Shown: piece after piece, positions 30,630 through 42,295 of the stretch
How the letters are laid out: each line of letters begins with the position of its first letter
Numbering within the stretch: the first letter of the stretch is position 1
Source: an uncultured Spirochaetales bacterium
GTDB lineage: Bacteria; Spirochaetota; Spirochaetia; Sphaerochaetales; Sphaerochaetaceae
Direction: 5' to 3'
NCBI GenBank assembly: GCA_949285145.1
Contig: CASDXQ010000006.1
Coordinates: 1-42,453 of the forward strand
DNA length: 42,453 nt
Translations under genes and position numbers: made by a program
Notes under the pieces: model-generated
The model's database searches: none
The model's input: only the letters and a program-made list of their open reading frames with translations
What the model was told of the DNA's origin: nothing

Positions 30630-31304
30630 TCAGATCCTCAGCCCTCCTCCGAGGATGAGGCCGTAACGGAATGAGAAATCAGCAGGAGATGCAAGATCAT
30701 AATAAAGATTCGCACCTACCTTGAAGAATGAATTGCTGTATTCAAGGTATGCCCCCAGGTTGGCATTCACGCCCCAGCTGTCAAAGTGAAAACAGACAGG
30801 TGCCGGCTTGCTGTTGGGTACGTTCGTAGTTGCCATGCGGTAGAAAGAATAGACAAGGCTGCAGTCAGTGAACAGTCCCCATGTGGGGCCGAAGGCCTGC
30901 TGGTAATAAAGTCCTGCGCCGAAATCCTGCCGGAAATCAAGTTCACGGCTGAAATACGATACATTTTCCCCACTGTCTGTCATATACCCTATTGTCAGAA
31001 GAGTGGTTGAAGAGATTCCTATTCCGAGCGGCAGTTTTTCAAACGGGAAAATAACGAGTTCAAACTTCGGGCCGAGCCCGTGAAGGGCGGAGACTCCTTC
31101 CCATTTCCCGTTATTATGGTATGCGGGGTAGTCTCCGGACAGCCCTGCCAGCATCCCCTCAATCTCATCCTGATTCGCCCTGGTCAGCCTGTTGACATCA
31201 TAAGTAAGATTGAGCCCTATATAAAGTCTCGGTGCAGCAGCAAGCGCAGAAGTAATGACAGCGGTAAATAATAATGCCAGCAGTACTCTTTTTATTCCCT
31301 TCAT
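30630..31304 (-). CDS. Outer-membrane beta-barrel protein, operon gene 4
   Basis: The 224-residue precursor has a signal peptide (MKGIKRVLLALLFTAVITSA, then LAAA). Its body alternates aromatic and glycine-rich strands (FGAGLYYQQAFG, GANLYYDLASP) and ends in LILGGGLRI, a typical small outer-membrane barrel. No specific family is recognised. I use the ATG at 31304, which follows the previous stop codon by one base, with GGAG 8 bases upstream. It is the last gene of a four-barrel operon. Confidence 0.75.
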   Translation of the reverse strand: MKGIKRVLLALLFTAVITSALAAAPRLYIGLNLTYDVNRLTRANQDEIEGMLAGLSGDYPAYHNNGKWEGVSALHGLGPKFELVIFPFEKLPLGIGISSTTLLTIGYMTDSGENVSYFSRELDFRQDFGAGLYYQQAFGPTWGLFTDCSLVYSFYRMATTNVPNSKPAPVCFHFDSWGVNANLGAYLEYSNSFFKVGANLYYDLASPADFSFRYGLILGGGLRI

Positions 31305-31305
31305 A

Positions 31306-31935
31306 TCATATACTCCACTTATAGCTGAAGCCCACATATGCTCCGGCACTCAGCATGAAAAAGTCCCAGGAATAGAAGTTTTCCTCATTTTCCAGGAGAA
31401 AATCATAAAAATGTGCGGTATAAAGCATACCCGCATTCATGAAGAACGAATTCCCTGCAACGGGATACATCACGTAAGGCTCTATCTGCAGTGACAGATT
31501 GAAACTTGAACTGAAATGTGAATAGCTGCCGATTGAAAGACGGACAGCGGTGCCGAAATCGGCCTTGCCGATCTGTGCGCGGAAAATCGGGCCGGCTGAA
31601 ATGAAGAATGCACTCTCCTGCTCATCTGTGGAATCATAAGCCTGTGAAGTGCTTTTATTTATTGTTTCCGCCCAGAAGGGAGATGAACAGAGAAATGAGA
31701 GAGACAGTCCTGTTCTCCCCTTATCTGAGAAGAAGAGGTCGGCATCAGCAAAAGCTCCCGCGTCAAGCCGCTTCAGGAGATCCGATGAAGGCGAATGCGG
31801 CAGGGGAGATGAGAATACATTTGTCGTGTACGATACAGGCACGCCCGCCCTGAGATAAACATCATAGCCCGCATAAAGCGGTGCAATACCTGCAAGCAGC
31901 ATTACTATTAAGGCGATTCTTCTGATACTTCTCAT
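31306..31935 (-). CDS. Outer-membrane beta-barrel protein, operon gene 3
   Basis: The 209-residue precursor has a signal peptide (MRSIRRIALIVMLLAGIAPL, cleavage near YAG). Beta strands rich in Phe, Tyr and Ser follow, ending with GAYVGFSYKWSI. Its ribosome-binding site (GGAG) lies in the end of the preceding gene, and it starts three bases after that stop. No known family is recognised. The shared operon and size suggest an outer-membrane barrel with the same role as its neighbours. Confidence 0.75.
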   Translation of the reverse strand: MRSIRRIALIVMLLAGIAPLYAGYDVYLRAGVPVSYTTNVFSSPLPHSPSSDLLKRLDAGAFADADLFFSDKGRTGLSLSFLCSSPFWAETINKSTSQAYDSTDEQESAFFISAGPIFRAQIGKADFGTAVRLSIGSYSHFSSSFNLSLQIEPYVMYPVAGNSFFMNAGMLYTAHFYDFLLENEENFYSWDFFMLSAGAYVGFSYKWSI

Positions 31936-31938
31936 ACA

Positions 31939-33078
31939 TCACACTCCGAAAGTGAATCCTATTGACATCTGAGCTCCCTCCACCTGATTGAGGGACGGGA
32001 ATTTCACATAACCGCACTGTACATAGAATTCTGCTATGCCAAGGAGGAGAAATTCAGCCTTGAGACCGAATATCGCACTGAAATCCCTGAAGTTCCTGTC
32101 ACTGCAGCTGTTGAGTGCCCTTCCCCCTGAAAATCCGAGATCGAGAAAGACGGAAAGTGCAGGATATGTATCGACAGTGAGCTGAGGTCCGTAGAATGTA
32201 AGGGAGAGAAGATTCGTGACAACATGCTGTGTGCTGATCATGAAATTGCCGTTCCACATATCCCCGCCCTGAATGTAATAAGGCACCTTCTCTCCCGCTA
32301 TGAAGCGGTATGTCGTACTGTTGTCCAGAACAACCGAGAACCAGCTGCGGCCCTCCTTCCACGGGACATCAATGAAAGTGAATGCAAGGTCCAGCGTATT
32401 GCGGCTGAGGATATAGTCCGAAGTTCCGTCATTGAGCGGGATCCATACAGGACCTGAAATCCTGAAATAGGAATCGAATTTCAGACCGTTCCTTCTGATG
32501 ACTTCATCAGACATGAAGTCAAGAGTCAGGGAAGCGGAAACGGATGTATTGAAAACAGATCTGTCCCCTTTAAGCTCAGGTGCTCCGGTAAAAGAAGAAG
32601 CCGCAAAGCGTTCGCTTCCATCTTCTGTCCAGAAAAGCCCCTCAGCATGGTCAGCATCATATTTGTAATCAAAAGTCTCGTAAGCATTCTCAAAACGGCC
32701 GTCAATATAGACACCCAGCGCCACATGATCATTCCAGAAACCTTGTCTGTAAAACAGATTGAACTCATCATACAGTACCATATATTCAAGAGGAAAGCCT
32801 GCATTGCTGTCATTGAGGAACCTGCCGTCATCAGGGTGCTGTCTGAGTTTTCTTATGTCAAGACCGTTGTCCAGCCGGAATGCAAGCTCGGTGGATGAGC
32901 CTTCAATGAAATCAGGAACAGGGAAATTGAACTGGTAATTGAGGGCGAGCGGGAAAATACCGGATGCAAAATCCGTCTCAGCCTTCGCTTCTATGATATG
33001 ATAGCCGAAGCCTATCGCGGAGGCAGAGGAAAGCAGCGCTGCAAAAAGAATGAGAATCAGGAAAACTCTTTTCTTCAT
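31939..33078 (-). CDS. Outer-membrane beta-barrel protein, operon gene 2
   Basis: The 379-residue precursor has a signal peptide (MKKRVFLILILFAALLSSAS) and a porin-like body with many aromatic strands, ending MSIGFTFGV. It appears paralogous to the first gene of the operon: both have IFPLALNYQ/LFPLGTSYE near residue 40, a long variable middle, and YGPQLTVDTYP/TGPQFLAGDCYP in the C-terminal third. GAGG precedes the ATG. The transported or bound ligand is unknown. Confidence 0.78.
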   Translation of the reverse strand: MKKRVFLILILFAALLSSASAIGFGYHIIEAKAETDFASGIFPLALNYQFNFPVPDFIEGSSTELAFRLDNGLDIRKLRQHPDDGRFLNDSNAGFPLEYMVLYDEFNLFYRQGFWNDHVALGVYIDGRFENAYETFDYKYDADHAEGLFWTEDGSERFAASSFTGAPELKGDRSVFNTSVSASLTLDFMSDEVIRRNGLKFDSYFRISGPVWIPLNDGTSDYILSRNTLDLAFTFIDVPWKEGRSWFSVVLDNSTTYRFIAGEKVPYYIQGGDMWNGNFMISTQHVVTNLLSLTFYGPQLTVDTYPALSVFLDLGFSGGRALNSCSDRNFRDFSAIFGLKAEFLLLGIAEFYVQCGYVKFPSLNQVEGAQMSIGFTFGV

Positions 33079-33091
33079 AATCTGCCCTCAC

Positions 33092-34282
33092 CTACAACGA
33101 AACATAGAAACCAAGCTGGGCACTCTGCCACCAGTTCGGGGATGCGGAATCAAAACCTTTCATGAAATCATAACCGAACGTGTAATTGACATGAATGAAG
33201 CCGAACAGGCGCAGATGGAACTCCCCGCTTATGCTGCTTCTGAACTCCCAGCCTTTTATGTTCCCTGTAATATCATTCTGGACTCTGCCGAAATAGCAGT
33301 TGTTGTTCAGCCTTATCTCGAAATACGGATAGCAGTCACCGGCAAGGAACTGAGGCCCCGTGAAGCGGAAAGCCAGAGTGTCGGTGAAATACCCTCTCAG
33401 TCTGTCTGTCTGTATCTTATGCTCAGGTATCACATCTCCGAAAGTATACCCCAAGGAATTCGAATGGGAAAGCATGAGTGTCAGCCAGTTCCAGCCGTTA
33501 TCCTGTATGACTGCAAAGATGGTCAGATATTCCGTTGCACTGCCTGAGGCCTTGAAATAGTCACTTGTGACTGTATCAGGCGAAACGGAATTGCCAAGCC
33601 ACCACGGCCCCCACTCAACGGACAGAGCGCAGCTCATGCCATCATAATTTCCGGCAGGAGCCGTCGTGCGGCGGAAATACCATGAAGAAGAAAGAACCAG
33701 ATTACTGTTCCACAGATTTCTGCTGCCGTACAGCCATGGATATGCCGGGATATCGTGGCCCTGCGTGAACACTTCATTTTCAAAAAAAGGAACTCCACCC
33801 CCCAGATTGAGTCTTTCCCTCGCAACTGCATAACGCGTATACAGTCCGATTGAAAGATCCATCATGGATCCGGATTCCTGTACAGGATTCACGCCGAACC
33901 CCTGAGTGAGTCTGAAATACATAGTGGCTGCAGGCCGGAAATACCTGCCGGAAAGCTTGTTCTCAGGATTTTCATTATTCCACCACGGCTCGCCGGTCTT
34001 CCAGTCATAACCGGAGCTTTCTGACAGACTGATTTCGGAAATGGAAAAAGAAGACTCTATTTCCAGATCAGCATCATAGATAAACGCATCTGAAAGAGGA
34101 AAGGAAGTATTGTATTCATAACTAGTGCCCAGTGGGAAAAGTCCCATGCCGAAACCGTCAGGCCCGCCGGAAACACCGTTTATCACAGTAGAAAGAGTGA
34201 ATGAATCCGCAAAGACAGAACCAGTGACTGTCAGCATCAGCACAATAACAAGAGCAAGGAATCTTTCCCCTTTTTTTTCCAT
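33092..34282 (-). CDS. Outer-membrane beta-barrel protein, operon gene 1
   Basis: The 396-residue precursor has a positively charged start and signal peptide (MEKKGERFLALVIVLMLTVT, then GSVFAD). A barrel-like body follows, ending SAQLGFYVSL. It is paralogous to the next gene. I use the ATG at 34282; the longer frame begins at a TTG inside the AT-rich promoter. TATCAT and TATAAA lie 10 to 30 bases upstream, and no Shine-Dalgarno is seen. As first gene it drives the four-barrel operon. Confidence 0.78.
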   Translation of the reverse strand: MEKKGERFLALVIVLMLTVTGSVFADSFTLSTVINGVSGGPDGFGMGLFPLGTSYEYNTSFPLSDAFIYDADLEIESSFSISEISLSESSGYDWKTGEPWWNNENPENKLSGRYFRPAATMYFRLTQGFGVNPVQESGSMMDLSIGLYTRYAVARERLNLGGGVPFFENEVFTQGHDIPAYPWLYGSRNLWNSNLVLSSSWYFRRTTAPAGNYDGMSCALSVEWGPWWLGNSVSPDTVTSDYFKASGSATEYLTIFAVIQDNGWNWLTLMLSHSNSLGYTFGDVIPEHKIQTDRLRGYFTDTLAFRFTGPQFLAGDCYPYFEIRLNNNCYFGRVQNDITGNIKGWEFRSSISGEFHLRLFGFIHVNYTFGYDFMKGFDSASPNWWQSAQLGFYVSL

Positions 34283-34321
34283 AACACTTTGTATGATATA
34301 TTCAAATTTATATGCTTTCAA

Positions 34322-34854: not shown

Positions 34855-35685
34855 TTATTCCTTCAGTGATTTTGAAATGAGAAAATCCGGAATGTAAATA
34901 TTCTGGATACCATCACGTGAGAAATCATGCTTGTCCATTGACAGTATGAGTTTCGGATAATTGTCTTTTATCTTCTCTAGTGCATTGAATTCCCGTTTCC
35001 TTGTATTCTCATCAATCAATGTCGCTGTGACCTGCATGTATATTTTTTCAGCCCCTCTGACTGCTATGAAATCAATTTCAGAACTGTCTCCATCGTTCTT
35101 GCCGACACTGACTTTAAACCCTTTTCTCTTCAGCTCCAGGAACACAGCATTCTCAAGAAGGGAACCATAATTCTCACTCATATTTCCTTTTGTCAGGGCT
35201 ATCAGTCCTGTATCGACGGGGTAATATTTATCTGTCTGCCCGAACCTGCCTCCTCCTTTTACAGTGTGGAACTCTGCATTGTAATACAGGAAAGAAGATC
35301 TGAAAGCCGCCATATATTTACTGATAAGCTCATGATACATTTTATATCCTGCGGACTTTATTCTATGTTCCAGATTGTTCATTGAAACAGGATATACGAC
35401 TGTATCATTGAGAAATGCAACAAGCCGTTTTATAGTCTCATTGTTGACAGCTGATCCAGCCTTTGGCCTGACATCATTGAAGAGTATGCTGTCAAGAATT
35501 GACTGGAGCATGCCTGTTTTCTGAGCCGGATCATCAAGCAGTGCTGTTATCGGAAAACCTCCATATAAATGGACTATCCTGCCTCTATATGTGAACAACG
35601 CCCTAAAAACACAGATTCCGGTTCGAGGCCAGGAGTTTGTACTGTTTCCAAACTCGATACCTGATGGAGAAAGCAATATCAACAC
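34855..35685 (-). pseudogene. Truncated ATP-binding protein, DUF4143 C-terminal half only
   Basis: From about residue 36 the frame matches the C-terminal part of AAA_14/DUF4143 proteins. It shows LYGGFPITALLDD, a winged-helix-like middle (NNLEHRIKSAGYKMYHELI), KYYPVDTGLIAL, LENAVFLELKRKGFKVSVG and the nuclease-like SSEIDFIAV. Those proteins normally have an N-terminal P-loop ATPase domain of about 200 residues, which is absent here. The first 35 residues of this frame are unrelated to the family. The gene is therefore truncated, with the break near 35580-35610. The 3' half is otherwise intact. Confidence 0.75.
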
Positions 35686-35789: not shown

Positions 35790-35809
35790 CTCTGTCAGTA
35801 AATGTCACA
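35790..35809 (+). promoter_or_regulatory. Candidate WYL-regulon operator, site 1
   Basis: CTCTGTCAGTAAATGTCACA contains TGTCA (35793-35797) and TGTCA (35803-35807), repeated one helical turn apart. It matches the reverse complement of site 2 at 17 of 20 positions. It lies 37 bases upstream of the Nudix start codon, in the only intergenic space before the Nudix-ankyrin operon. Confidence 0.55.
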
Positions 35810-35815
35810 CTAATT

Positions 35816-35862
35816 GCTTAAGCTCTAATCATCACGGGAGAGAAAGATGAAAGAGCTTAAGC
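35816..35862 (+). other. 11-bp inverted repeat enclosing the Nudix ribosome-binding site and start codon
   Basis: GCTTAAGCTCT (35816-35826) is perfectly complementary to AGAGCTTAAGC (35852-35862). The 25-base loop holds the GGGAG ribosome-binding site and the ATG at 35847. In RNA this could present or hide the start of the Nudix gene. Both arms also contain the palindrome GCTTAAGC. Confidence 0.5.
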
Positions 35863-36260
35863 CTAGACATTACTACGGTGCCGGAATGATTCTTTACACG
35901 AAGGATGGAAACGACGGCATCTCGGTTCTTCTTGAAAAGAGATCTGATAACCATACATGGGCAATCCCTGGCGGTGCCATCGAAGAGTGTGAGAAATACA
36001 TTAAAGCAGCCCAGAGAGAAACCTATGAAGAGACAGGAATCAAAGTCGATTCAGCATGGCCTGTAATGAACTATCATCTGCCATACTTCTCCTATTATGT
36101 TTTCGCATCAGAACTGAGCCATAAAACAGTTCCACGGAAGAATTGGGAATCAGATGCAATCGAATGGTTTTCCATGGAAGCTCTTCCAGAGGGGATGAAC
36201 TGGATGACAAGAATAGAGATAAAAGACTTCATCAGAAAGGAGAAGAAACATGTGGAGTGA
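35847..36260 (+). CDS. Nudix hydrolase
   Basis: The 137-residue protein has a full Nudix box, GX5EX7REUXEEXGU, read as GAIEECEKYIKAAQRE then TYEETGI (residues about 42-64). Only the hydrophobic position after RE is replaced by threonine. Nudix enzymes hydrolyse nucleoside diphosphates linked to another group, using magnesium held by the box glutamates. The substrate is not readable. GGGAG precedes the ATG. Its stop overlaps the next start by 11 bases, forming a Nudix/91-aa/ankyrin operon behind candidate operator site 1. Confidence 0.9.
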   Translation: MKELKPRHYYGAGMILYTKDGNDGISVLLEKRSDNHTWAIPGGAIEECEKYIKAAQRETYEETGIKVDSAWPVMNYHLPYFSYYVFASELSHKTVPRKNWESDAIEWFSMEALPEGMNWMTRIEIKDFIRKEKKHVE

Positions 36261-36525
36261 AGAATTGAAGAAAATGACAATCGAACATTTCGGAGATTTT
36301 GGTGAAACAATACTCAAGACTGTGGTGAAAGGCAAATATTCCTATGCTGTCGGGTTCGACAGGAATCTCTATATCACGGATGAGGCAGAATCCCTGATTC
36401 CTGAAAGCGAGAATAATAAGCGGTATTTCATTTTCACCATGGATGATTCAAGGAAACCGGTATCCTTTATCAAAGCATATGACTTCATAGAGGATCTCGT
36501 TGAAGACGGCTGGGCAATCGACTGA
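36250..36525 (+). CDS. Hypothetical 91-residue protein
   Basis: I do not recognise this small acidic protein (MWSEELKKMTIEHFGDFGET start, DFIEDLVEDGWAID end). It is soluble with no signal peptide or membrane segment. AGGAGAAG precedes the ATG inside the Nudix gene, so translation is coupled. It sits between a Nudix hydrolase and an ankyrin-repeat protein and may be a partner or regulator of one of them. Confidence 0.7.
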   Translation: MWSEELKKMTIEHFGDFGETILKTVVKGKYSYAVGFDRNLYITDEAESLIPESENNKRYFIFTMDDSRKPVSFIKAYDFIEDLVEDGWAID

Positions 36526-36531
36526 GGTAAT

Positions 36532-37839
36532 ATGAATAGAGAGATCAGCAACTACTACAGGGCATTAACAGGGAAAGAGCTTTCAGAAGAACTGGCTCTG
36601 GAAGCCCTATATGCTGCCATAAGGAACGAGGACATTCCTCTCATCAGGGCATACCGAGGCAATGCACCAACCGATGAGGATGAATGGGAGAAAAAGAAGT
36701 GTGAGGACATGTATCCCATGCGATTCGCCTTCCGTGAGATGGCACACGTTTCCGTACTTGAAGCCCTTCTTGATATCGGCTTCACTCTTCCTTCCGGTCC
36801 GGATGTCACACCGTTTTCAGGCACGCCGGAAGAGATAACAGCTTTTCTGATGAGGGCGAAAGGTATTGACTGGAAGGAAGCAGTGTCATATCTGCTGTTC
36901 AGCAGCAGCTACTATATTGATGTATTGCACAAGGACTCTTATTTCCAGATACCATTCCGTCTTAATCCTGATGATGTCTATGAGCCTGGCTTTATATCAT
37001 ATCTCAACTCCTGGATTGTAGATTTCGCACTGTTCCTGAAAAAAGAGGATATCGGACAGGGAAGGGAAGAAGCTTTCAATCTAGGCCAGATCTGCCGTGT
37101 GCTTGTGGAAGATGAGGAGCTTTTTAAGGCTCTTCAGGCTTGCATGTCCTTGGGAATATTCGATGAATACGATGAAGGCTGGATGATGAGCCGGGCTATC
37201 TGTCACGACAATGAAAAAGCATTTGATCTGCTTCTCTCAAGAGCTTCAGATGATTCTCTATGCGACATTAACAGCTATCCGAGAAAGAATATGAGAATAC
37301 TTGAAAAGATGTTTGCACATGAAATTCTCATTCCCGGGACAGACCAGGCCTTTGAGGCATTCGAGCATTTCATTTACCGCTTTAACAGCGAGCATGACAA
37401 CACAGAGATTATCAAACGGGTAATGCATCCTTCATATGTGAAAAGACGGGATGATAAAGGCAATCCGATATTGCTGCATGCTGCATTGGTCAACGATAAT
37501 TTCCCTACAGATTGCTACCCGATTCTTGCACCGTCAAGAGAAGACATCAACGCTCGGGATTCAAAAGGCAGAACCATACTCTACTACCATGCTAAGAGGT
37601 ATCCTTATTGTCTGGAAGACCTGATAAATGCAGGAGCTGATCCATATGATGTCGATGAAAACGGAAACACCGTGCTCCACATCATGATTGCCAATGGCAG
37701 ATACGACATCACAATGGAAGACTTCAAAGATGCAGCAAAGTTCCTTCCTGGAGACATCATTTACAAGAAGAACAATGACGGGAAGACTCCTGTTGATTTA
37801 TTCACAGAACTACTGACAAGGAAGGATGAGGCTGAGTAA
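36532..37839 (+). CDS. Ankyrin-repeat protein
   Basis: The 435-residue protein is helical. Its C-terminal third has clear ankyrin units: INARDSKGRTILYYHAKRYP (about 340-359), LINAGADPYDVDENGNTVLH (about 366-385) and YKKNNDGKTPVDLF (about 413-426). Weaker ankyrin-like helices occur in the N-terminal part (LEALLDIGFTLP). It is cytoplasmic with no signal peptide, and probably a protein-binding module. GAGG lies 5 bases before the ATG. It is the third gene of the Nudix operon and converges on the P-loop-less DnaB-like gene with a 6-base gap. Confidence 0.8.
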   Translation: MNREISNYYRALTGKELSEELALEALYAAIRNEDIPLIRAYRGNAPTDEDEWEKKKCEDMYPMRFAFREMAHVSVLEALLDIGFTLPSGPDVTPFSGTPEEITAFLMRAKGIDWKEAVSYLLFSSSYYIDVLHKDSYFQIPFRLNPDDVYEPGFISYLNSWIVDFALFLKKEDIGQGREEAFNLGQICRVLVEDEELFKALQACMSLGIFDEYDEGWMMSRAICHDNEKAFDLLLSRASDDSLCDINSYPRKNMRILEKMFAHEILIPGTDQAFEAFEHFIYRFNSEHDNTEIIKRVMHPSYVKRRDDKGNPILLHAALVNDNFPTDCYPILAPSREDINARDSKGRTILYYHAKRYPYCLEDLINAGADPYDVDENGNTVLHIMIANGRYDITMEDFKDAAKFLPGDIIYKKNNDGKTPVDLFTELLTRKDEAE

Positions 37840-37845
37840 TCGGCC

Positions 37846-38613
37846 TCAACTTTCCTTTTTAAGCAGAAGCACTTTTCTTCCTCTGATGCTGAAGCCGGCT
37901 ATGATACTGCTGTCATTATCGATGTGGAACCTGTACTGCTTTCCTCCGTTTACGGTGACTGTCACTTCCTCAGGCGGCGCAAGAATAAGCCTGTTTCTTT
38001 CTGGCCAGACCTTAAGCGTTGTCACTCCATTCAGCTTCTGTGGAAGAGATGATGTGAAGACTATCAGAGACAGGCCATATTTCACAGCAACCATCTTCAG
38101 TGCATCATAGTGATTCAAATACCCCTTCTCTCTTGATTCAGCATCAAGATAAGGAAAGCCTGAATCATAGGAGAGGATGACAACTCTGAATCCCTTTGAT
38201 GAGAGAACTTCAAGCTCATCTTCAACTTCGCAGAACCTTTTTGCCCTTAACCTTTTCGACAGGATTGCTCCTGCTGACAGGCGATCCATCATTATTTCAT
38301 CTGATTCAAATTCTCCACTCAGGAAGCTTAGCAGCATCCTGTTCTGGAAAGTATGGGATTCCTCATTGCAGGAAAGCATCACCAGTGGTGTGTAGTCCAA
38401 TATTGCAGGACGAAGCATGCCGAATAGAAACATGTATGAATAGTTGATGTCATTCATGTACACGACATCACCTGACGAGAGCTTATCCAGAACAGGCAAT
38501 GAAATGTCGATACTGCCACCATCCGGACATTTCCAACTTTCAAGATCTTCCGGGTATGTATAATCAATGAGTTCACACGCTTCTTTCCAATGTGGTGAAA
38601 ATCTGTCAATCAT
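37846..38613 (-). CDS. Unknown protein, possible P-loop-less RecA/DnaB-fold
   Basis: The 255-residue protein has no recognised domain. By eye it follows the order of a DnaB C-terminal RecA fold like that of the ATPase at 40696. LSSGDVVYMNDINYSYMFLF (about 45-64) takes the Walker A position but lacks GKT/S. CNEESHTFQNRMLLSFLSG (about 82-100) resembles the segment after strand 2, GFRVVILSYDSGF (about 141-153) the Walker B strand, and DALKMVAVKYGLSLIVFTS (about 170-188) the helix-strand before the sensor. I use the ATG at 38613 (GGAG 9 bases upstream); the longer frame starts at TTG. It diverges from the WYL gene. Confidence 0.6.
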   Translation of the reverse strand: MIDRFSPHWKEACELIDYTYPEDLESWKCPDGGSIDISLPVLDKLSSGDVVYMNDINYSYMFLFGMLRPAILDYTPLVMLSCNEESHTFQNRMLLSFLSGEFESDEIMMDRLSAGAILSKRLRAKRFCEVEDELEVLSSKGFRVVILSYDSGFPYLDAESREKGYLNHYDALKMVAVKYGLSLIVFTSSLPQKLNGVTTLKVWPERNRLILAPPEEVTVTVNGGKQYRFHIDNDSSIIAGFSIRGRKVLLLKKES

Positions 38614-38654
38614 AAATATAGTCTCCAAAATCCTTCACTATCCTATTATTAATC

Positions 38655-38674
38655 TGTGACACCTGCTGACAGAG
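38655..38674 (-). promoter_or_regulatory. Candidate WYL-regulon operator, site 2
   Basis: Read on the minus strand it is CTCTGTCAGCAGGTGTCACA, 17 of 20 identical to site 1 and again TGTCA-N5-TGTCA. It lies in the spacer between the divergent WYL regulator and the 255-aa gene and could control both. That would include autoregulation of the WYL gene. Confidence 0.55.
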
Positions 38675-38715
38675 TTTAAAAAACATCAGATAATCGTACT
38701 GGAGGAGATGAAGAA

Positions 38716-39738
38716 ATGGCTTCAGACAATCTGCCATCAAAGCTTGCGATTGCAACATACATCGGGAACGGAAACGGACGTTCGATCTATGATATTGCGG
38801 AACATTTCGGGATTTCGGTCAGGACTGCATACCGCTTTCTCGACAGGCTTCAGGCAGAAGGTTATCCACTTACAAATGAAGAAAGAAGAAACGGCAGGGA
38901 AAAACTCTGGACGATGCTTGATGTGCACAGTGACAAGTACGGCAACGCATTGCCATCTTCAGAGTTTTCACAAGAAGAATGCATTCTGCTTCACTACATA
39001 ATGGCAGAGCTGAAGAAGAATGAAGATGTTCTTCCTTCCTTTAAGTCTGTAAGAAACAAGCTTGCCTCGGTGCTGAGCCAGAAATCAGTGGCATTTCCTT
39101 CTCTCGATTATTCCAAAAGCATTTCCAGGAAGCTGTTTCCGATTGAGAATATCAGCACAATCAGCAAGATTGCATCAAAGGAAACGCAGCTTATTGTCAA
39201 ACAGCTATTGAAAGCTATAAGCGGACAGAACTGTGTATCAATGAAATACCATGTGCCAAACAAAGCATCAGCGCTCGAGGTGAAAAACATCTCGCCGGTT
39301 TTCGCATTCTTCTATGACGGAGGAATGTATCTGCAAGCACTTCTTGAAGATGGAACTTTAAGAACATATGCTATCGAAAGAATTGAAACAGTCTGCATCG
39401 TCAAGGACAGCATTGCCTTGAAACCGGATTTCGATCCTTATGGACTTCTCACAGATCCGTTCGGCCCTTTCATTGGCAAAGAGAAGATTGAAGCCAGGGT
39501 ATGGATAGCACCTTCCCAGGTGAAGTATGTGAAAGAAAGGAAATGGCCGGAGAGTGTCACAATCAGAGACAACGAAGACGGTTCTGCCATCTTCGAAGTG
39601 ACAACATATGGCGAATGGGAATTCGTGAACTGGATACTCTCAATGCGTTCCCAGGCAGAGCTGCTTGAACCAGAATGGCTGAGGAGCAAAGTCTCAGCCA
39701 TACTCGACCAGAGCGCTACTCTGTATCACACTCACTGA
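38716..39738 (+). CDS. WYL domain transcriptional regulator
   Basis: The 340-residue protein has an N-terminal DeoR-type winged helix-turn-helix (SIYDIAEHFGISVRTAYRFL then DRLQAEGYPL, residues about 23-52), a linker helix region (about 75-150) and a WYL domain. The WYL core strand reads GGMYLQALLEDGTLRTYAIE (about 197-216), with Met for the usual Trp. A WCX-like C-terminus follows (YGEWEFVNWILSM). WYL regulators commonly sense nucleic-acid or nucleotide ligands and control phage-defence loci. GGAGGAG precedes the ATG. Candidate operators lie upstream and at neighbouring units. Its 3' end overlaps the opposite gene by 23 bases. Confidence 0.88.
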   Translation: MASDNLPSKLAIATYIGNGNGRSIYDIAEHFGISVRTAYRFLDRLQAEGYPLTNEERRNGREKLWTMLDVHSDKYGNALPSSEFSQEECILLHYIMAELKKNEDVLPSFKSVRNKLASVLSQKSVAFPSLDYSKSISRKLFPIENISTISKIASKETQLIVKQLLKAISGQNCVSMKYHVPNKASALEVKNISPVFAFFYDGGMYLQALLEDGTLRTYAIERIETVCIVKDSIALKPDFDPYGLLTDPFGPFIGKEKIEARVWIAPSQVKYVKERKWPESVTIRDNEDGSAIFEVTTYGEWEFVNWILSMRSQAELLEPEWLRSKVSAILDQSATLYHTH

Positions 39739-40540
39739 TGATTTCTTCATTCAAAGATGTCTCCCAGGACTTGCGTATCAACCGGTCAGACCAGCCATAG
39801 GGATAAGCTTTGAAAAATTCCTCATAGTCCTGATATTCGGAAATCAGCATTTTACGCCTTTCATTATCACAAGCCTGGATGACATGAACCATAGCACCGT
39901 CCAGATCATCAGGTGCAATGTTTTTCGGATATGAGTCATACACCGCACTCATAAGGATACGGTTCACCTTTTCAACATTAGCCGGACTGGAATCAGATGT
40001 AGGAGCACTATCTCCTTTGTAGTGAAGCACAGAACGGGAGAGCAGATCTCTGACAAGGCCTTCTCTCTTATCCCATATGTACTGACAGGCATCGAAGTAC
40101 ACTCTTATACCATTATCCTTACTTTCGTACTTTTCAAAGGTAGCGACAATCCGGGCCAGTTTGTCTGCTTTGTTCAGAAAGTCCTCATCCTCTGGAATGA
40201 TTGAAAGCATTCGGCTGTCACTCTCATCAGATGCATTGAGCATAATCTGAAAAGGTCTGGCAAAACGTGACATCATGGATACCTCATCCATGAACTCTGA
40301 ATTCCAGTCAAGCGTGAATACAGGTGAAAACCGTGAGAGAAATGAAGCAAATCCCGGGTTCATGCCAGGTATCTCATTAACAAACATACCTCTCCTCGCA
40401 GAAGATACCGTGAGAATATCACGGGATATCCTCTCATTCCTGTCTTTTTGAGAAACGAAAGGGTCATTGGTTTCTGCCTGAGCAAGAAGGTAATGTCTGA
40501 GTGCATCAATATGAGTCTGAATCTTATCTGAATAATCCAT
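39716..40540 (-). CDS. Hypothetical 274-residue island protein
   Basis: I do not recognise this soluble, mostly helical, acidic protein. The ATG at 40540 has GGAGG 6 bases upstream and fixes the start. It has no signal peptide, no membrane segment and no visible catalytic motif. It includes YFDACQYIWDKREGLVRDLL (about 150-170) and a C-terminal SEYQDYEEFFKAYPYGW stretch. It converges on the WYL gene and diverges from the DnaB-like ATPase. The shared spacer holds two copies of the candidate operator, so it is probably part of the same regulon. Confidence 0.7.
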   Translation of the reverse strand: MDYSDKIQTHIDALRHYLLAQAETNDPFVSQKDRNERISRDILTVSSARRGMFVNEIPGMNPGFASFLSRFSPVFTLDWNSEFMDEVSMMSRFARPFQIMLNASDESDSRMLSIIPEDEDFLNKADKLARIVATFEKYESKDNGIRVYFDACQYIWDKREGLVRDLLSRSVLHYKGDSAPTSDSSPANVEKVNRILMSAVYDSYPKNIAPDDLDGAMVHVIQACDNERRKMLISEYQDYEEFFKAYPYGWSDRLIRKSWETSLNEEIISECDTE

Positions 40541-40579
40541 CTGTCGCCTCCATATATCAGCTATGGTAATGAATGAATA

Positions 40580-40594
40580 TGTCAAAAGCTGTCA
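40580..40594 (+). promoter_or_regulatory. Candidate WYL-regulon operator, site 3a
   Basis: TGTCAAAAGCTGTCA is a TGTCA-N5-TGTCA direct repeat like sites 1 and 2. It lies 40 bases upstream of the 274-aa gene start, in the divergent spacer shared with the DnaB-like ATPase gene. Confidence 0.5.
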
Positions 40595-40620
40595 GAACAA
40601 AACAAATTCCTGACTTTCAA

Positions 40621-40640
40621 CTATGACAGATTTTGTCACA
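40621..40640 (+). promoter_or_regulatory. Candidate WYL-regulon operator, site 3b
   Basis: CTATGACAGATTTTGTCACA matches site 1 at 14 of 20 positions. It has the inverted form TGACA-N5-TGTCA and the shared ending TGTCACA. It is 56 bases upstream of the DnaB-like start and 27 bases from site 3a. Confidence 0.5.
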
Positions 40641-40695
40641 TATTGTCCGTAATATTCATACACACTTGAAAACCAATGGATAGCAGGAGAAAAAA

Positions 40696-41610
40696 ATGGA
40701 CATGAGTGGAAAAAGAAAAGAAATAGAGATGAATAAAAAAAAAGAAATATTGGACGGATATTCCGGATCGACCCAAATATCTTGGCATCTTGAGTATATG
40801 CGAGAAAAAATAGCAGGAGCGGAACATCTTTCACCGATTTCAACAGGATTCGGTGATTTGGATTATTTTCTTAATGGAGGGTTGTATCCCGGACAATTGG
40901 TTGCAGTGGGAGCAATGCCTTCCGTTGGCAAGACATCATTTGTCGTATCATTGATTCGCAATATGCTTGAAAGAAACAAGAATATTCTGTTTTTCTCTCT
41001 GGATATGTTTTCTAGGGATATCATCAGAAGGTTACTTGCAGGAGCTTCAGGTATAAGTTTACGTGAAATCATTAAATGTGATCTCTCAACGGATGCATTT
41101 GAATACGTTATATCTGCAGCACAACAATTATGGGATCGAACCTTTTTTATTGTTGATACTCCGGGATTATCAATAGAGAAACTGGAGAAGATAGTCTTGG
41201 CTGCAGTATCCACGGAACAAATAGATTGTATTCTGATTGATTCTTTTAACCTGATTGAATGTTGTGCAAATTCTGAAACAGACCGGTATAAAAGAATTGC
41301 AAATGTGCTGAGAAGACTTGAGTGCCGCGATGCACCGATTGTCACAACATTTCAGTGCCCATACGACAAAAGCCAAAGAGAACCTTCCTTGGCTGATGTT
41401 CCTCATGATATATATCCACTTGTCAATGAAAGTGATGTTGTGTTTTTTCTTCACCGGACACGATTTGTAACCGACCTTGATCAGTACTATAATGATGATG
41501 CTATTGTCAAAGCTGCGCAGCCAGTAAAAATCATTGTTGAAAAAAACAGAAACGGAGATACAGGTGTGATCAATATTCGTTTTAATGGTTTTACAACATC
41601 ATTTGAATGA
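40696..41610 (+). CDS. DnaB C-terminal-like RecA-fold ATPase
   Basis: The 304-residue protein resembles the ATPase half of replicative helicase DnaB without the primase-binding N-terminal domain. ISTGFGDLDYFLNGGLYPGQ leads into Walker A GAMPSVGKTS (about 72-81). FFSLDM (about 100-105), the Walker B CILIDSFN (about 178-185) and VTTFQCPYD (about 215-223) follow. FLHRTRF and PVKIIVEKNRNGDTG near the end match the DnaB sensor and arginine-finger region. AGGAG lies 6 bases before the ATG. It may be a hexameric ATPase of the island rather than the chromosomal helicase. Confidence 0.85.
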   Translation: MDMSGKRKEIEMNKKKEILDGYSGSTQISWHLEYMREKIAGAEHLSPISTGFGDLDYFLNGGLYPGQLVAVGAMPSVGKTSFVVSLIRNMLERNKNILFFSLDMFSRDIIRRLLAGASGISLREIIKCDLSTDAFEYVISAAQQLWDRTFFIVDTPGLSIEKLEKIVLAAVSTEQIDCILIDSFNLIECCANSETDRYKRIANVLRRLECRDAPIVTTFQCPYDKSQREPSLADVPHDIYPLVNESDVVFFLHRTRFVTDLDQYYNDDAIVKAAQPVKIIVEKNRNGDTGVINIRFNGFTTSFE

Positions 41611-41639
41611 CTGTCTTGGAATTAATTGAGGAAATGTTA

Positions 41640-41675
41640 TTCGGGCATTCATACATCAAAAACACAAAGCCCGAA
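41640..41675 (+). terminator. Weak hairpin after the DnaB-like gene
   Basis: TTCGGGC (41640-41646) pairs with GCCCGAA (41669-41675) over a 22-base loop, 30 bases after the stop codon. There is no T-run, so its terminator role is doubtful. Confidence 0.25.
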
Positions 41676-41785
41676 CTCATGTGCAGCAAATCAGCTATCA
41701 AAACAGAAATAATGACAATATCAGCGCCAAGTTAAAAAACAAACTGCAGTTATAAAACTGTGAACCTGAAATTTCCGTATTTCAT

Positions 41786-42295
41786 ATGACAGCATATGTC
41801 ATACATGATATCTATTCTGCCGGTATATCAGAACTTGCAGCGGCGATTACCCTTTCTTTTCATTACGCCGAACCATTGTTTGGCATACTGGATATTGATG
41901 CATACATAAAAAAACAGAAAGTATTTGATCCGGTTCTGTCAGAAATACTGAAGGAAACAAACGGCCATATAATCTTTGAGGAACAGAAAGTCCATGCAAT
42001 CTCTGTTTTATTTGAATCTACTATTAATGAGGCATTATACGCTTTCAGAAGTATTTATGAAGGAAGTGAAAGCAGAATTGATGCACTCAAAAAGGAATAT
42101 ATAGAAAAAGCAGCTGAAAAAGGAATTGAACAGCAGTATGCGAAAAAGACATTTTATATTATTAAGTACATAATAAAATATAAAAAGATTCTGCCATTGA
42201 AAGCAGAGTGCATTTTATGTGCAATTGAAACATACCAGTTAGCCTATATCGCTGCATATTATCCAGAAGTGGCAGATGAAGTTTTCATTTTTTAG
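41786..42295 (+). CDS. Hypothetical 169-residue protein
   Basis: I do not recognise this mainly helical soluble protein (MTAYVIHDIYSAGISELAAA start; lysine-rich middle QQYAKKTFYIIKYIIKYKK). The ATG has no ribosome-binding site, and an in-frame stop lies 33 bases upstream, so this start is the only one available. TGACA-N5-TGTCA overlaps the start codon (41787-41801), which may tie the gene to the island's regulon. It is the last gene before an insertion sequence. Base composition is AT-rich, like the DnaB-like gene. Confidence 0.6.
   Translation: MTAYVIHDIYSAGISELAAAITLSFHYAEPLFGILDIDAYIKKQKVFDPVLSEILKETNGHIIFEEQKVHAISVLFESTINEALYAFRSIYEGSESRIDALKKEYIEKAAEKGIEQQYAKKTFYIIKYIIKYKKILPLKAECILCAIETYQLAYIAAYYPEVADEVFIF

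Follow-up and report, generated by a model that had tools for sequence, protein, structure and literature searches.

Five copies of one short motif stand around the gene for a WYL regulator in an accessory island of an uncultured spirochaete. Do they make the island a single regulon, is the WYL protein its regulator, and are the genes switched on or off? The window that we analysed is a stretch of 42,453 nucleotides, in which the original prediction had marked TGTCA-N5-TGTCA, or the variant TGACA-N5-TGTCA, at five places. All five sites are present, one of them a single nucleotide from its predicted place (40624 rather than 40625), and the agreement reported between sites 1 and 2, 17 of 20 positions, is the same when recomputed. 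Operators 1–4 lie in spacers, as proposed, and operator 5 overlaps the first codons of a called 169-aa ORF (Table 1); together they stand ahead of all the transcription units of the island. The half-site, TGWCA, is nearly palindromic on its own. Because it is almost its own reverse complement, a single motif covers the direct (TGTCA..TGTCA) and inverted (TGACA..TGTCA) forms; both predicted sequences occur, but their division into separate forms falls away. Aligned flanks lengthen the palindrome to T-N-TGWCA-N5-TGWCA-N-A.

Table 1 Features of the island in the window, with the mini-DnaE paralogues of related loci
Feature	Position	Strand	Remarks
Operator 1 (TGTCAGTAAATGTCA)	35793..35807	+	upstream of the Nudix operon; kept before Nudix orthologues of relatives
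−10-like box TAAGCT	35819..35824	+	11 nt from operator 1
Nudix hydrolase gene	35847..36260	+	Pfam NUDIX 4.9e-17; first of operon
91-aa protein, no family assigned	36250..36525	+	overlaps the Nudix gene; conserved in relatives
435-aa ankyrin-repeat protein	36532..37839	+	Pfam Ank_2 7.8e-12
255-aa protein	37846..38613	−	DnaB-like fold suggested, without P-loop
−10-like box TAGGAT	38640..38645	−	255-aa gene; 11 nt from operator 2
Operator 2	38657..38671	−	common to the WYL and 255-aa genes, which diverge; the TGACA in it doubles as the WYL gene's −35
WYL gene −10 box, GATAAT	38689..38694	+	17 nt from the −35 CTGACA within operator 2
WYL regulator, HTH + WYL + WCX, 340 aa	38716..39738	+	Pfam HTH_11 3.2e-6, WYL 9e-8, WCX 2e-15
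274-aa protein	39716..40540	−	convergent with and overlapping the WYL gene
−10-like box TACCAT	40563..40568	−	274-aa gene; 11 nt from operator 3
Operator 3	40580..40594	motif match +, oriented − towards the 274-aa gene	upstream of the 274-aa gene; present in relatives
Operator 4	40624..40638	palindromic, + towards gene	upstream of the DnaB-like gene
−10-like box TAATAT	40650..40655	+	follows operator 4 at 11 nt
304-aa DnaB C-terminal (ATPase) domain protein	40696..41610	+	DnaB_C 9.2e-41; Walker A and B kept
169-aa ORF	41786..42295	+	DNA_pol3_finger 2.9e-7; aligns with the C terminus of mini-DnaE paralogues
Operator 5	41787..41801	palindromic, +	covers the start called for the 169-aa ORF
−10-like box TATTCT	41813..41818	+	11 nt from operator 5, within the called 169-aa ORF
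Mini-DnaE paralogues of relatives	L036:2665-4980, L039:9922-12273, L043:12394-14808

In the window, TGWCA-N5-TGTCA is matched exactly at the five operators and nowhere else. They give 7 strand-hits at 5 places, where 0.29 strand-hits are expected, and 0 of 100 shuffles reach 7. Pattern searches of the 2.06-Mb genome (61 contigs) return 15 such places, 5 of them within one 6-kb stretch that makes up 0.3% of the genome (Poisson p about 2e-10). The prediction had staked itself on the motif not being equally frequent elsewhere in the genome, and the count is 5 places in 6 kb against 10 in the 2.05 Mb outside the island, every one of these 10 within an ORF, a result that leaves the prediction standing. 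Off the island, a single match departs from this placement: it is 19 bp long, stands before an ATPase-like ORF (G000:C11:25331) and has no TANNNT at 11 nt. With this genome's off-island matches placed in this way, we rejected a genome-wide regulator.

The sites hold a fixed position relative to a promoter element. They were oriented towards the genes they precede before spacing was measured. Of 22 non-redundant target promoters, 16 then have TANNNT at exactly 11 nt past the downstream half-site, against 0.72 expected and a maximum of 5 in 5000 shuffles; the other 6 miss it. The resulting pattern, TGWCA-N5-TGWCA-N11-TANNNT (32 bp), has 5 matches in the genome of the window, which are operators 1–5, and 0 in a reversed control. 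A chance origin of the sites is ruled out by these enrichments in the window, in the genome and of the full pattern. As the target genes share no homology, the spacing does not reflect common descent of one promoter. A usable −35 was looked for in 20 target promoters at 15–19 nt spacing and none was found, the best match averaging 2.05 of 6 positions against 2.96 of 6 in shuffles. If the −10 is placed at −12 to −7, the half-sites centre near −26 (downstream) and −36 (upstream). The box at the same distance past operator 5 makes this site look like a promoter too, and the called start of the 169-aa ORF is accordingly doubtful.

Among the island genes, the WYL gene alone has a normal −35/−10 promoter, and an operator covers its −35. 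This promoter, CTGACA-17 nt-GATAAT with 5 of 6 matches per box, is the same in four relatives, one with ATGACA; in relatives L113, L114 and L118 the −35/−10 layout is not clear. Since the −35 lies inside operator 2, this one operator faces a complete promoter towards the WYL gene and, on its other side, a promoter that has no −35.

A search with the WYL protein finds eight loci in uncultured Spirochaetales, at 98 to 58% identity and including Candidatus Ornithospirochaeta stercorigallinarum. Counting the motif in related genomes, as the original prediction proposed, shows that it recurs before the same genes: before the Nudix operon, in the spacer between the WYL and 255-aa genes, before the 274-aa gene, and before DnaB-like and DnaE-like genes. 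The relatives with sites span two genera and WYL identities down to 58%; they share descent, and their sites are not fully independent of one another. Among 139 genomes of the order searched, the 255-aa and 274-aa proteins are found only in some genomes of two genera, and these loci have the same sites despite differing gene order and flanks. Relatives carry the island at differing places, with gene fragments, and in L037 a putative two-gene insertion resembling IS200/IS605 (L037:10029-11969) separates operator 4 from the DnaB-like gene.

The pattern follows the WYL gene. It is present in 14 of 14 genomes with a WYL orthologue (36 hits) and in 27 of 125 without (31 hits), an association across the 139 genomes with Fisher p 6e-9; G041, scored as lacking WYL, has three pattern hits and a 274-aa gene cut by the contig end and thus may carry the system. 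As the pattern was derived from the islands, only hits outside them form a held-out test, and 4 of 7 such hits in WYL genomes precede regulon families. These are a mini-DnaE gene and an AAA+/91-aa operon in G038, an Nmad gene (Nmad2-Nmad3 fusion) in G049:C1 (L138), and a Nudix-91aa-Ank-DnaE operon in G068. In WYL-less genomes, 1 of 15 pattern hits checked lies near a member of a regulon family, a GIY-YIG fragment (G066:C3, L142) that is possibly a remnant. The 274-aa gene is absent from G044 and G068, and the 255-aa gene from G073, while motif and WYL gene are present in all three; each is therefore dispensable for the motif, which supports the WYL protein as the binder. WYL is the island gene that could not be separated from the motif across genomes. 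That the island is one regulon governed by the WYL protein, as originally proposed, is well supported by the conservation, the genome counts and this inseparability; that the protein binds the sites, the other part of the proposal, is a prediction from sequence. Separately, bare TGWCA-N5-TGWCA is in excess in G009, G011 and G012 (33, 47 and 32 against 13, 12 and 4 in a reversed control), which have no WYL orthologue. We rejected these as instances of the same system, the extended patterns not being enriched there.

The WYL protein carries HTH_11 at residues 21-58, WYL at 161-226 and WCX at 257-331, the domain order of PafBC/SiwR/DriD-type activators. A single-sequence search found no characterised relative, and the best PDB match of the family profile is PafBC, colinear but weak (E 0.004). 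Residues R216 and R222 are invariant in ten orthologues, which is suggestive as regards ssDNA binding.

Several genes of the regulon resemble pieces of the replisome. The 304-aa protein corresponds to the C-terminal ATPase of the DnaB replicative helicase alone, without the N-terminal domain. For the 255-aa protein, the top Foldseek matches are DnaB (E 1.6e-3, from a low-confidence model), and a P-loop sought in the family alignment is absent; profile comparison by hhalign gave no significant support for a derivation from DnaB, which leaves a weak fold match. Family searches with the 274-aa protein, which occurs in two genera only, gave no match, and its predicted structure is unusable (mean pLDDT 38). 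The 169-aa ORF is probably a remnant, the C-terminal shard (finger domain) of a mini-DnaE of the kind that lost PDIDVDF. A shard with its start inside operator 5 is also found in G013 and, in a shorter frame, in G015. In relatives, the mini-DnaE proteins stop after the fingers, without the C-terminal part. The L043 protein (804 aa) keeps PHP, palm and finger domains and the catalytic Asp motif PDIDVDF, and the L036 and L039 paralogues have lost this motif. The best models for mini-DnaE are replicative DnaE, not DnaE2. Nmad2-Nmad3 fusion genes stand behind the same promoter motif at L036:682-2613 as well as at L138, hinting at a link to modified DNA.

A PADLOC scan of eight proteins, seven from the window and one relative's mini-DnaE, found no core anti-phage system; its generic or accessory matches were WYL models of CRISPR loci, the Nudix candidate PDC-S07 (1.8e-7) and ankyrin. 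A LexA-like gene lies elsewhere in the genome, with a score below the curated cut-off, so the WYL regulon would not be the sole damage response. Beside the island, window positions 34855-35685 encode a DUF4143 protein without its AAA part, and full-length DUF4143 ATPases adjoin the island in relatives L040 and L114. Four same-strand genes at 30630-34321 encode secreted, possibly outer-membrane beta-barrel proteins, and also lie beside the island in G015 (L087).

Taken together, the regulon is likely driven by a WYL activator of the PafBC/SiwR/DriD class, a reading favoured because the promoter geometry of that class, the domain order and the weak PafBC profile match agree. In this model, a dimer of the 340-aa HTH-WYL-WCX protein would bind the palindrome TGWCA-N5-TGWCA, with its halves near −26 and −36 and at the fixed 11 nt from the TANNNT −10 box. 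Because the target promoters have no −35, housekeeping RNA polymerase would need the bound WYL protein there. The WYL gene itself would be read at a basal level from its near-consensus −35/−10, whose −35 is an operator half, and the protein would probably limit its own basal expression. By analogy, the signal may be ssDNA from damage or from stalled or foreign replication. It would turn on the Nudix-91aa-Ank operon and the 274-aa, 255-aa and DnaB-like genes, together with mini-DnaE, Nmad and AAA+ genes in relatives, and the products might then serve the repair or bypass of replication, or interfere with it.

Repression would place the same sites in a different light: a protein of the BrxR/CapW kind could cover the promoters until released by a signal such as phage infection. 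We consider this unlikely, even though the sites overlap promoter regions, the −35 of the WYL gene is covered by an operator, and those WYL regulators that have been described from phage-defence islands are repressors (PMC9122601, PMC10693628). At the targets there is no −35 to block, and a complete promoter is covered only at the WYL gene. The distance from operator to −10 is invariant across unrelated genes, a constancy that a repressor does not need, whereas the repressor BrxR uses 11-bp inverted repeats downstream of the −10 (PMC9122601). Nor was a core defence system recognised among the eight proteins scanned. The likeness to BrxR and CapW drawn in the original prediction is thus not favoured as a mode of action, the sites lying at a fixed distance upstream of −10 boxes that have no −35.

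Constant spacing to a −10-like box would also be imposed by an alternative sigma factor, and the motif might be an element of such a factor, or of a regulator encoded elsewhere, with the WYL gene as a passenger. This we regard as quite improbable, since the motif is palindromic and a single copy serves divergent genes (L039:9865, L039:4130), it stands 17 nt rather than 11 from the −10 at the WYL gene, the −10 is of the housekeeping type, and the motif follows the WYL orthologue across the 139 genomes. Lastly, duplicated or mobile promoter cassettes might have carried the copies along, leaving them without present function. The varying location of the island, the IS-like insertions (L037) and the gene fragments would fit such a history, but it is very hard to credit when promoters of non-homologous genes are alike only at the half-sites and TANNNT, and when these elements are kept in two genera and, on other contigs, at loci with a single gene.

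The layout of the island suggests a regulator that switches genes on, as happens in mycobacteria when DNA is damaged, and not one that keeps them off, as in islands of phage defence. With such an activator, the PafBC-type code, a half-site TGTC(R/A), 11 nt and TANNNT, would extend to spirochaetes with a palindromic site and a probable homodimer, and sigma adaptation by WYL proteins would then be broader than Actinobacteria. It also suggests a rule by which WYL activators and repressors could be sorted from promoter sequence alone. The island would give a gut spirochaete DnaB and DnaE paralogues that are stripped down and inducible as a set. Far more tentatively, and with considerable doubt, we propose that these truncated, partly catalytically dead helicase and polymerase copies might be replisome decoys: triggered by ssDNA through a −26 code outside Actinobacteria, they could block foreign or damaged replication and possibly act against phage.

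We found no earlier description of this system in the literature examined, and it differs from each of its known counterparts. Like LexA/SOS with DnaE2/ImuB mutasomes, it would make accessory polymerase-like genes inducible, but the operator is another, the LexA-like gene is off the island, and the mini-DnaE ends after the fingers and has replicative DnaE, not DnaE2, as its best models. BrxR and CapW are likewise WYL regulators within accessory islands with inverted-repeat sites; they are repressors with another site placement, and here no core defence genes were recognised. DriD of Caulobacter is a homodimeric WYL activator whose sites overlie poor −35s at an unvarying distance from the −10, and whose own promoter is bidirectional, with only the divergent side activated (PMC12340889). 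Unlike the protein described here, it has about 914 aa with further domains, and its targets are didA, bapE, recJ, dnaG and others. SiwR of Mycobacterium smegmatis is a single-gene homodimer with local targets and a 19-bp palindrome beside its own gene, between −35 and −10, where the −26 region is required (PMC10693628); it differs in serving one operon of DinB/YfiT-like genes and in a conserved GGA at −26. In mycobacterial PafBC, the promoter reads tTGTCRgtg, 8 nt, TannnT, that is, TGTCR-N11-TANNNT (PMC5656591), and the protein is described as sitting between sigma domain 4 and the DNA at the −26 element and as activated by ssDNA (PMC11804915). PafBC and the present system share the HTH-WYL-WCX order, the half-site (TGTCR/TGWCA), the 11 nt to TANNNT, a site near −26 and a poor or missing −35. 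Whereas PafBC is a heterodimer that reads one half-site and governs core repair genes, here one gene of marginal sequence similarity (E 0.004) is paired with two half-sites 10 bp apart in an accessory island of a spirochaete.
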